Source: an uncultured Prevotellaceae bacterium
Lineage (GTDB): Bacteria; Bacteroidota; Bacteroidia; Bacteroidales; Bacteroidaceae
Length of the DNA stretch: 64,000 bases
Direction of reading: 5' to 3'
NCBI GenBank assembly: GCA_902776195.1
Contig: CACYPF010000003.1
Location: 1 to 64,000, forward strand
Below, piece by piece: positions 963 to 46,866 of this stretch. The stretch's first letter is position 1. Each line of letters starts with the position of its first letter. A program made the position numbers and the translations under genes. Below the pieces are notes generated by a model, which was given only the letters and a program-made list of their open reading frames with translations, was not told where the DNA came from and did not search any database.

Positions 963-1453
963 GAATTGAATGAAATTGTATCTGCAAGAATCGCAATGGG
1001 GAACTGAATGTACTGGGCAGACTCGCCAAGCGACTTTAACCCTGCTATCCCTGCTACAGGGTGGCTGAAATGCTGATGTACAAAGGGCGGAGCCTGTAGC
1101 AGGATTAGGATTTATCCTGCTACAATGGTGCTACAACCCTGCTACAAGACAGCGACAGTCTTTTGAGTGGATTGAAAACGGCTATAGGCGTTCAGTTGAT
1201 TGGCTGGAGCCGTGCAGTCGTTTGGCTATAGGCGAACGGTTGAAAGGATGCTTCTAACTCCCTCGAAGGACGGCACTGATACCCCAATACCCTTATCCTG
1301 TTACCCCTACGCAAGGCATAAAAGTTGGGGTTCTAAATGATCCACTTTGTCAAGTGCCTGAGGGGATGAATTAGAAAAAAAACGCAATAACTGGAATGGA
1401 TAATCCGATAGAACAAGCGCACCTTACGAACCGCTAAGGGCTTGATGAGATAA
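963..1453. other. Non-coding stretch with CTGCTACA repeats and a perfect inverted repeat
   Basis: I see no convincing gene here. CTGCTACA-type words recur at about 1041, 1050, 1117, 1128 and 1139. An 11-bp perfect inverted repeat, TGTAGCAGGAT (1095-1105) and ATCCTGCTACA (1114-1124), has an 8-nt loop. The word GGCTATAGGCG occurs twice (about 1180 and 1222). A copy of the 37-bp dispersed repeat lies at 1333-1369. Confidence 0.6.
1333..1369. repeat. Dispersed ~37-bp repeat, copy 2
   Basis: The copy reads CTAAATGATCCACTTTGT then CAAGTGCCTGAGGGGATGA, a diverged version of the unit at 104-140. It is preceded by AAGTTGGGG, a word that also precedes the copy at 1836. Confidence 0.6.
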
Positions 1454-2132: not shown

Positions 2133-2164
2133 TTTGGTGGATTCGGGAATTATTCCTACCTTTG
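2133..2164 (+). promoter_or_regulatory. Promoter of the candidate non-coding RNA
   Basis: TTTG (2133-2136) and TACCTTTG (2157-2164) are separated by 20 bp, a full match to the Bacteroidota consensus. Transcription should start near 2171. No convincing protein gene follows before the terminator at 2607-2639. Confidence 0.7.
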
Positions 2165-2170
2165 CACTTG

Positions 2171-2639
2171 TAAGTGTGTCCATGTGTGGGCGACTTTAAA
2201 ACAATTTGATGGAAAGAGACCTCAGGTCAGTTGTACGGCCGGTCTCGATAGGACGTTTTCCAACTTTACGTGTCTGCATCTTCAAACTTCGCAACTTTGA
2301 ACTATAGACAGCGGTAATGCACAGAGACGTTCGCGTGGGTAGATTCTTATATGCGCCTGCGGCTATTATTCCCTTTATATATGATAAGGTGTACGCCAGC
2401 GATGGTGATACTCTCTTTGCGTATATATACCCATTGGGTGTAGTATGCCGTGGCGTGTGTAATGTCACAGCGTGGGTAGGGTATATTTTTTTGGTACGCA
2501 AAGCGGCTCAGATGGTGGGCAACAGATAGGTTCGACTCCTCGCTTTTGCGGCGACATTTCTTGGGAACAAGAAGATGTTTAATTGTTAAACTAAAATGTT
2601 AAAAGCAAACTGCCTGCCCGTGAGGGTAGGTCAGTTTTT
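2171..2639 (+). ncRNA. Candidate structured non-coding RNA (~470 nt)
   Basis: The stretch lies between a good promoter and a strong intrinsic terminator and carries long-range complementary arms. GAGACC (2216-2221) pairs with GGTCTC (2241-2246). CTTTGCGTA (2415-2423) pairs perfectly with TACGCAAAG (2495-2503), and inside it TATACCC (2426-2432) pairs with GGGTATA (2479-2485). Long frames are open on both strands here, which suggests low stop-codon density rather than coding. I found none of the hallmark motifs of RNase P RNA, tmRNA or SRP RNA. A 6S-like or Bacteroidales-specific RNA is possible. The boundaries are inferred from the promoter and terminator. Confidence 0.5.
2607..2639 (+). terminator. 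Intrinsic terminator of the candidate RNA
   Basis: A 12-pair stem with one bulge and a GTGA loop is formed by AACTG-CCTGCCC and GGGTAGG-CAGTT. It is followed by a run of T. Confidence 0.7.
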
Positions 2640-2673: not shown

Positions 2674-2712
2674 CTGTCGTGAGCCCGTGAGGGTCTGCGA
2701 CAGTCTTATTTT
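2674..2712. terminator. Hairpin at the 3' end of the DUF4831 gene
   Basis: CTGTCG (2674-2679) pairs with CGACAG (2698-2703) around an inner CCC-GTGA-GGG stem-loop. A T-rich run follows on the plus strand, overlapping the stop codon of the converging gene. A smaller hairpin ACCTCC/GGAGGT lies just upstream, around 2651-2665. Confidence 0.5.
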
Positions 2713-3782
2713 TTCTCCGGCATCTCCGCATGAAGTTTCTCGATGGCACCGGTGATGGGGTTGAGAATCATCTGCGTGGGATATTTCTTGAAAAGGGAAC
2801 CGCCGCGAAGCTCGGTGAAACCGAACTGGGCGAACGCATAATTGTAAGTGGCGAGTTGCTGGTCCTCCCGGTAGAGGGTGAGGCGCACGATGCCCGGGAC
2901 GTTGGTGTAGAAGCCGCCGTCCTTCTTGTTCTCCGGATAGTCGTATTGCTGTTGGCTCTGCTGGTGCAGGTCCTCGATGCTCACATAGAACGGTACACCG
3001 GCGAGGTCGTCCTTGTCGACGACACCCAGTTGTTTGCTGATACGGAAGAACACCTCCCGTTTCATCTCCTTCTCAGGGCACAGGGTGACCACCTGTTCCG
3101 TAGTGTCACATACCGTGATGCCTGTGAAGAGGGAGAGTAATGCCTCGTGAGTGCGGTCAATCTCGTCGAGCATCAGTTGCAGTTGTGCCTTGTCAGTAGG
3201 CATCTCCTCCGCCTCCCCTGTAATCAGCAGCTGGCGGTGCTCCTGCAGTTCCGCTATCTGGAGAGCTGTTAGCTCAGCCTTCCTTGCCATGCTACCGGCA
3301 TTCATAGCTTCCGCACTGAGGAACTTCAGCGGGTCAGGAGTCGTCTGTCTGGGTGCGGCACGGAACGGCAGCGGCTGCTGTACCTGCTTGGGTGTATCAT
3401 TGACGGCAAGCAGTACGCCGTCCTCGCTGAGTTTGATCTCGGAGGTGGCACTCTTCCCTTTCAGGTTGACGATAAAGCATTTGGAGGTGTCGCGGATCCC
3501 CGTCAGGCTCAGCTGGAATTTGAGGAGCCGGTGTTCCGTTTGTTTCTCCTGTGGGATATCTTTTCGTTGCAGGTATCTCTCTGCATATTGGCAGAAGATA
3601 CCAGGGGTATATGTCTTCTTCTCGGTGAGAAGATGGAAATGGACGGCAGTCTTAGGGAGATAATAAACGGTACCTTCCGGCATCTTCTCTGACCGCAGCA
3701 GTGCTGACGAGACGGGTTGTGCCCCAATCGTCATGCTGCCAAACAGCAGCAAAGCGGTGAGCAGTGTCCTCAGCAGTCGCAT
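2706..3782 (-). CDS. DUF4831 family secreted protein
   Basis: This 358-residue protein starts with a signal peptide (MRLLRTLLTALLLFGSMTIGAQ). It fits the DUF4831 family of Bacteroidales, which has a conserved VYYLPKTAVHFHL motif near residue 40 followed by a GIFCQYAERYL segment. It is probably periplasmic or attached to the envelope, and the function is unknown. It starts only 7 bp after the stop of the NAD(P)HX repair gene, so the two are probably co-transcribed. No lipobox or membrane helix is seen beyond the signal peptide. The family call rests on motif recognition. Confidence 0.8.
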   Translation of the reverse strand: MRLLRTLLTALLLFGSMTIGAQPVSSALLRSEKMPEGTVYYLPKTAVHFHLLTEKKTYTPGIFCQYAERYLQRKDIPQEKQTEHRLLKFQLSLTGIRDTSKCFIVNLKGKSATSEIKLSEDGVLLAVNDTPKQVQQPLPFRAAPRQTTPDPLKFLSAEAMNAGSMARKAELTALQIAELQEHRQLLITGEAEEMPTDKAQLQLMLDEIDRTHEALLSLFTGITVCDTTEQVVTLCPEKEMKREVFFRISKQLGVVDKDDLAGVPFYVSIEDLHQQSQQQYDYPENKKDGGFYTNVPGIVRLTLYREDQQLATYNYAFAQFGFTELRGGSLFKKYPTQMILNPITGAIEKLHAEMPEKK

Positions 3783-46792: not shown

Positions 46793-46866
46793 GGCGGGAT
46801 AGCTCAGCTGGTTAGAGCGCATGATTCATAATCATGAGGTCCCCAGTTCAATCCTGGGTCCCGCTA
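46793..46866 (+). tRNA. tRNA-Met (CAT)
   Basis: This is a full cloverleaf. Acceptor GGCGGGA pairs with TCCCGCT (first pair G-U). The D arm is GCTC-AGCTGGTTA-GAGC, the anticodon arm CATGA-TTCATAA-TCATG with anticodon CAT, the T arm CCCAG-TTCAATC-CTGGG, and the discriminator A. The CCA end is not encoded. The loop TTCATAA suggests elongator Met, but an Ile tRNA read after lysidine modification cannot be excluded. Confidence 0.93.

Follow-up and report, generated by a model that had tools for sequence, protein, structure and literature searches.

Among the described RNAs closest to the element reported here, tmRNA has a tRNA-like domain formed by the pairing of both RNA ends and carries a tag frame, while in MALAT1/mascRNA a tRNA-like fold behind a long RNA can direct 3′-end formation by RNase P and RNase Z. 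The parts recognized by RNase P are the acceptor stem, the T-arm and the CCA. From the Bacteroidota, one report describes FopS of Bacteroides thetaiotaomicron, a family of multicopy paralogous sRNAs of ~65–70 nt that are single-stranded along a 5′ stretch, end in a terminator hairpin and act on outer-membrane-protein mRNAs (PMC11697453). A further candidate RNA, HMP2_1881, is reported as a transcribed sequence of 108 bp, mostly from Bacteroidetes and located near radical SAM genes (PMC8040213). In the open-licence papers searched, nothing was recognizable as the R1/R2 RNA that we describe below.

The window is a 64,000-nt stretch of DNA from an uncultured Prevotellaceae bacterium (GCA_902776195.1, contig CACYPF010000003.1). 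Judging from its sequence, the element near its left end has the form of a promoter-to-terminator transcription unit without a conserved reading frame, composed of a leader domain (R1), a tRNA-like domain that lacks the anticodon arm (R2) and a terminator module that is conserved. Its features are:

2133–2164, + strand: Bacteroidota-type promoter (TTTG at 2133–2136, 20 nt, TACCTTTG at 2157–2164), read in the sequence and kept in the compact copies.
2205–2346, + strand: module R1, the shared 5′ leader domain (covariance model, 143 bits in the window; double changes at 13 of 29 pairs).
2347–2495, + strand: variable middle (60% mean identity among the compact copies), where mRNA-type copies have the remainder of their leader, followed by a CCCACGTC-T(n) terminator and genes.
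2496–2556, + strand: module R2, a tRNA-like domain without an anticodon arm (covariance model, 80 bits in the window; double changes at 8 of 16 pairs).
2497–2503, + strand: 5′ strand of the acceptor-like stem, paired with 2543–2550, where a single base bulges out of the 3′ strand (by a double change, an A-U pair has become U-A in two of the six own copies).
2506–2520, + strand: D-arm, GCTC-AGATGGT-GGGC (in 27 sequences each of the four pairs shows two-sided changes, and all lettered cells are paired).
2526–2542, + strand: T-arm with the canonical loop TTCGACT and two outer pairs mismatched in the window copy (near-invariant GAGGTTCGANTCCTC in relatives).
2577–2602, + strand: invariant 26-mer GTTTAATTGTTAAACTAAAATGTTAA (eight own-genome matches, all exact, with three mismatches allowed).
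2605–2638, + strand: terminator 1, from a terminator scan.
2674–2713, + strand: second hairpin (~2674–2703, by reading) and T run, where homology among several copies stops.

Module R2 resembles the tRNA-like domain of tmRNA in having an acceptor stem and a T-arm and in lacking an anticodon arm, but it folds locally within 61 nt, possesses a true D-stem and comes with no conserved frame. Identity with tmRNA was rejected: both acceptor strands lie inside 2497–2550, so the RNA ends do not pair to close the molecule, and the frames tested as a tag are not open in the other five copies; ARAGORN found no tmRNA in the window or in 12 related loci. In the source genome (G000, 93.6% complete) no tmRNA reached the Rfam cut-off, the best match overlapping a tRNA gene. 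An ordinary tRNA was likewise set aside, as the place of the anticodon arm is taken by a short linker (5–6 nt in the own copies and a little more in some relatives) and neither ARAGORN nor the Rfam tRNA model calls R2 as a tRNA. With MALAT1/mascRNA the element shares the layout of a long RNA followed by a tRNA-like fold; however, that system is eukaryotic and keeps an anticodon-like arm, whereas R2 is bacterial, lacks the arm and is paired with a dedicated 5′ leader family. Like FopS, it is a multicopy paralogous noncoding RNA of a Bacteroidota genome, but membership in that family was rejected, since the window unit spans ~470 nt, with a structured 5′ leader domain and a tRNA-like tail, against the ~65–70 nt given for FopS (PMC11697453). 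A likeness to HMP2_1881 (PMC8040213) is that several R1 leaders precede Cys-rich peptide and radical-SAM-like genes; judged by its description, that RNA may overlap part of the R1 leader.

The original prediction took this stretch for an independent structured RNA between a consensus promoter and a strong terminator, devoid of a credible protein gene, and this reading is supported, with covariation in two modules added to it. The TTTG-N20-TACCTTTG promoter is present, and its zone has a mean identity of 79% in the six compact copies versus 45% just upstream; an E. coli-type promoter scan of the locus, which does not cover TTTG-type promoters, returned nothing. At the other end, a terminator-like hairpin and T run occupy 2612–2638 (the scan found three terminator-like sites versus 1.1 in shuffles), leaving a span of ~470 bases between promoter and terminator hairpin. 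The fold of the strand at 2160–2640 beats 100 of 100 dinucleotide shuffles (z −2.79), and the fold of the window RNA is branched, as a prediction only. Sense and antisense frames carry stops in all five other compact copies: the 70-aa frame at 2317–2529, the 76-aa frame at 2070–2300 (tested from 2091) and the antisense 101-aa frame at 2196–2501 were each rejected as coding on this basis. A short frame from the 26-mer zone (ATGTTAAAAGC), judged by eye, was dropped as it crosses the terminator and varies in frame among the copies.

No Rfam family matched at the element. The gathering-level scan of the whole window gave a tRNA gene at 46793 as the sole match, that of 18 related loci gave none, and at E ≤ 10 the interval 1800–2800 yielded one chance-level ylbH match upstream of the element (14.7 bits against a gathering threshold of 50). 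In the earlier statement that tmRNA hallmarks are absent, the canonical T-arm GGTTCGACTCC at 2529–2539 had been overlooked.

With the window stretch as query, the source genome yielded 16 matches, and an alignment of 13 copies (12 from the own genome and one from genome G007) displays two types. The compact type has six members, on contigs C3 (the window), C18, C4, C33, C15 and C37. The mRNA type, also with six members in the own genome (C27, C8, C6, C31, C14 and C9), has only the 5′ part in common with it; its own 3′ part is unlike that of the compact type, bears CCCACGTC and a T run, and leads into a protein gene, which on C8 codes for a BspA-type leucine-rich repeat protein (Pfam LRR_5, 192.8 bits). 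Across 12 mRNA-type loci, CCCACGTC was found in 10, its distance to the start of the examined stretch being 315 to 478 bases. Six of the 12 R1 matches in the own genome are compact with R2, and the R2 matches at E ≤ 0.01 are likewise six, all of them compact copies (best 18 candidates scored). Mean pairwise identity among the compact copies is 79% in R1, 83% in R2, 100% in the 26-mer zone and 60% in the middle, and drops in the outer flanks to 45% and 13%. To the window copy, the other four own copies of full length are 78–83% identical, and the homology of several copies stops at ~2113 and ~2713. In C37 a leader-type terminator remains directly before R2 (by reading), thereby linking the compact form to the long form. 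The compact-type 3′ part also occurs twice on C8, without the 5′ part.

For R1, we built a covariance model on window positions 2205–2346 from 11 sequences, 10 of the own genome and one of G007. With the best 10 candidates per genome scored, it matches at least 134 of the 299 genomes of the genus at E ≤ 1e-3 and, counted by eye, at least 65 of them, the own genome included, at E ≤ 1e-10. In the order sample it matches nine of 198 genomes including the own one, the other eight (of 197) being weak, with a best E-value of 8.8e-8. Standard pairs fill 95.9% of 1014 cells in 36 matches from 38 sources, as against 32–52% when the partners are slid by one to three columns, and 13 of 29 pairs are changed on both sides, a value that 0 of 500 shuffles reach; these alignments, like those for R2, were fitted to the model and so lean towards structure. 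Genus-wide homologues, compensatory changes in both modules and the lack of an Rfam match support the suggestion of a new class.

Twenty further R1 loci of other genomes were studied for their context. All 20 have a TAnnTTTG within 140 bases upstream of R1, where chance would give 7–8%, and CCCACGTC occurs in 10. Within 2 kb after R1, a frame of at least 100 codons is found on the same strand in 20/20 loci and on the other strand in 7/20; the first residues of these same-strand frames look secreted-protein- or lipoprotein-like in 11 cases (by reading), while three loci have Cys-rich peptides beside radical-SAM-like genes and other frames are kinase-like or unclear. A search of the 20 loci for R2 produced none that was convincing and one weak hit at 19.7 bits. 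R1 is hence the predicted core of a promoter-driven 5′ leader that elsewhere precedes protein genes, and, as R2 is rare (9/299 genomes) and R1 common, R1 does not need R2. R1 leaders before Cys-rich peptides beside radical-SAM-like genes were seen in L041, L043, L202, L204 and L212; one such peptide matches TIGR04117 below threshold, and a modified-peptide system under the R1 leader is possible at these loci.

The R2 model was built from the six own compact copies, in which its pairs hold in 92.7% of 96 cells, and for these copies alone the shuffle control is not significant (97/500). In the genus it finds nine of 299 genomes at E ≤ 0.01, the own one included. Outside the genus three of 197 genomes matched, and these were dropped, two being ordinary tRNAs by ARAGORN and one weak. 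Across 27 R2 sequences, 93.3% of 404 cells are paired, versus 38–61% with slid partners, and eight of 16 pairs are changed on both sides, which none of 500 shuffles reaches. In the window the acceptor stem pairs CGCAAAG with CTTTTGCG. When the 27 sequences are folded singly, three or more of the expected pairs form in the acceptor stem of 23, the D-arm of 21 and the T-arm of 20; folding energy alone is not special, with 22 of the 27 z-scores between −2 and 0. A model-free alignment (MAFFT and RNAalifold, 23 of the 27 sequences) recovers the T-stem and two other pairs only. R2, with its conserved acceptor stem, D-arm and T-arm with T-loop consensus, thus classifies by its form as a predicted tRNA-like structure, for which the unfitted alignment backs the T-stem only; tRNA-like structures as a functional class serve as substrates or ligands of RNase P, the CCA-adding enzyme, a synthetase or EF-Tu. 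An encoded CCA follows the base after the acceptor stem in five of the 27 (L158, L160, L161 and two in L162), most others having CGA, CAA or CTA in its place; the window copy has CGA. Thirteen of the 18 named records with the tRNA-like pattern are from Prevotella or Prevotellaceae, five of these 13 having an R1 match in the examined stretch; the five Firmicutes records (L171, L173, L175, L178 and L183) were discarded, as they show one other common context that is coding-like.

These structures also bear on the long-range helices that had been proposed for the window. The 9-pair helix of CTTTGCGTA with TACGCAAAG is perfect in the window but is not kept whole across the six copies: seven of its nine pairs remain in C18 and C4 and six in C37, and in C33 and C15 it is broken at 2418/2500, precisely where the acceptor pair is kept by a double change. 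As it engages the acceptor 5′ strand with 2415–2423, it excludes the acceptor stem, to which it might be an alternative in four of the copies. The TATACCC/GGGTATA helix fails in three of the six copies. The last of the three helices, proposed as GAGACC/GGTCTC, is real as GAGAC/GTCTC, forms part of R1 and shows double changes in 36 sequences.

In other genomes the two modules recur as the ends of gene-bearing units. At least 16 of the 23 R2 matches listed are preceded by an R1 match on the same strand: all seven in G315, four of five in G166, both in G107 and all three in G114, where two stand behind one R1. The seven with no R1 in the stretches examined or among the matches listed are one in G166, two in G130 (one of them at a contig end), two in G229, and one each in G244 and G275. 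The distance between R1 and R2 in the 16 units ranges from 142 nt to ~6.7 kb, and 15 of them have genes in between: one that is surface- or lipoprotein-like, one of ~45–60 codons for a small peptide and sometimes others; the same number has CCCACGTC, the exception being the compact L153, where the modules are 142 nt apart and enclose no gene. In L152 they are 675 nt apart, with the small peptide gene alone between them. R2 can start shortly behind a stop codon, 1 nt after it in L184, 3 nt in L180 and 22 nt in L170. The lipoproteins of several units look fimbrillin-like by reading, among them that of L157, for which Pfam gave no match. The window element, joining R1 to R2 without a gene where the modules elsewhere stand at the unit ends, is thus a cargo-free form of this pair. 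Such a compact copy is orthologous, at the same place, in two Prevotella metagenome-assembled genomes, G166 and Prevotella sp. RGIG4836 (L186), where it is convergent to a gene read as acetate kinase. Between the two copies, identity is highest in R1 (90%), followed by the promoter side and the 3′ module (85% each), R2 (84%) and the middle (51%); in their surroundings, the acetate-kinase-like gene has 93% and the upstream flank 34% identity.

From the anatomy and the RNA-level constraint read in the sequence, we infer a function along the following lines, offered tentatively as falling somewhat short of an even chance: the element would be a stand-alone R1–R2 RNA that attracts a tRNA enzyme with its tail and rivals the mRNA leaders with its head. 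Enzymes of tRNA processing would recognize the tRNA-like tail; a cut near 2496/2497 by RNase P, the likeliest of them, would separate the upstream RNA or define its 3′ end. RNase P is the simplest candidate, because it is known to recognize the acceptor stem, the T-arm and the CCA, the last of which is present in some copies. In the stand-alone copies, the R1 head might compete in trans for a factor or RNA that the mRNA leaders would use to control read-through of their terminator, and the compact copies could thereby set the dose of surface-protein expression. This possible trans role is suggested by the sequence that the compact copies and the mRNA leaders share. Counted against this explanation are the poor unfitted alignment, the unremarkable R2 energies and the non-significant six-copy shuffle control, as well as the rarity of R2, the R2 matches that lack R1 (7/23) and the CGA instead of CCA in the window.

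The main rival, in itself unlikely, is that the compact copies are relics of surface-protein units after gene loss, transcribed without a function of their own. The leader-type terminator still present in C37 speaks for such a history, as does L152, with which a reduction series exists, and the middle is poorly conserved both among the six copies and in the orthologous pair. Yet promoter, R1, R2 and the wholly identical 26-mer zone are conserved in six copies that otherwise differ by ~20%, an orthologous compact copy has been kept in two genomes beside a dissimilar upstream flank, and all six own R2 matches at E ≤ 0.01 (best 18 candidates) are compact. The ends of inter-copy homology at ~2113 and ~2713 in several copies, the unrelated outer flanks and the toxin-antitoxin-like pair on C8 between direct repeats of the 3′ module would also suit a mobile element, a ~600-bp unit of a MITE-like non-autonomous form spreading as DNA with its folded ends serving mobility. 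We consider this improbable: no terminal inverted repeats or target duplications were noticed by eye in the boundaries viewed, the phage, plasmid and viral collections gave no match, the four other full-length own copies are 78–83% identical to the window copy, and the stem changes are compensatory at the level of RNA.

It is quite improbable, too, that the element is an attenuated 5′ leader acting in cis on the next gene. R1 does stand upstream of genes elsewhere, and five of the six compact copies have a same-strand gene downstream, but these five genes are unrelated and partly housekeeping (YchF-like, histidine-kinase-like and Fic-like by reading), the next gene of the window (2706–3782) and the acetate-kinase-like gene beside the orthologous pair are on the other strand, and terminator-like hairpins intervene between element and gene. 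Across genomes, conservation of the tRNA-like stretch is strongest on the T-loop side, as would fit an integrase attachment site stemming from the 3′ end of a tRNA; the D-stem, however, covaries in several sequence versions, which is not required of an attachment site, and with the viral, phage and plasmid collections devoid of matches we hold this to be very improbable. Scarcely credible is a divergent 6S RNA or tmRNA. Such an origin would agree with a compact tRNA-like fold in a stand-alone structured RNA, but not with the absence of an Rfam match, the confinement of both acceptor strands to 61 nt, so that the RNA ends do not close as in tmRNA, the lack of a conserved frame or the six compact copies. 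The 6S-type RNA considered in the original prediction is not supported either, as no 6S model matched, be it in the gathering-level scan of the window or in that of 1800–2800 at E ≤ 10, and the element is homologous to mRNA leaders. 6S RNA is a long rod whose central open bubble mimics open promoter DNA, and it binds RNA polymerase and templates pRNA; the fold of the window RNA comes out branched, as a prediction only. In a genome search with the 6S-Flavo model, its controls matched nowhere.

Returning to a gene-free R1–R2 RNA that couples a leader to a tRNA-like tail, we can further envisage, as a rather doubtful generalization, a two-ended RNA system of Prevotella for surface-protein expression, in which R1 would form the 5′ end of the mRNAs, a tRNA mimic without an anticodon arm would form their 3′ end and attract RNase P or a different tRNA enzyme, and gene-free copies acting in trans would couple both ends. 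The novelty lies in the combination, leaders with terminators and tRNA-like folds each being of known kinds. R1 constitutes a structured leader family without an Rfam entry, present in at least 65 to at least 134 of the 299 sampled genomes of this gut and rumen genus, depending on the threshold, and its leaders accompany many surface-protein genes. If the proposal is true, an anticodon-less tRNA-like fold at bacterial mRNA 3′ ends would be a bacterial counterpart of the viral and MALAT1-type tRNA mimics, and R2 at mRNA ends would test whether tRNA-processing enzymes shape the ends of bacterial mRNAs. The gene-free copies offer a small testable object that holds both RNA ends.

Several further observations concern the surroundings of the element. 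Peptides of ~45–60 codons (MDKKELKFYDAPACEVVEL..., MKKTYFNPEMDVIEL...) occur in most R1–R2 units (L150–L164 and L037, for example in L154 and L157); the three small peptides tested had no NCBIfam match, and two of them had no Pfam match either. On C8 (L033:3737–4796), a toxin-antitoxin-like gene pair lies between two direct repeats of the 3′ module, which consist of the 26-mer and terminators without R1 and the D-arm. All six compact copies (C3, C4, C15, C18, C33 and C37) are situated within ~3.1 kb of a contig end, which suggests that neighbouring repeats broke the assembly. A dispersed repeat of ~40–55 bases (tgaatgatccactctggcaagtg...) is present in the window at 104–157, 1333–1369 and 2027–2080 and also near other copies of the element, and window positions 1023–1319 (300 bp) form another repeat, unrelated to the element, with 91% identity to a stretch of C36 in the own genome (L039:7755–8059).
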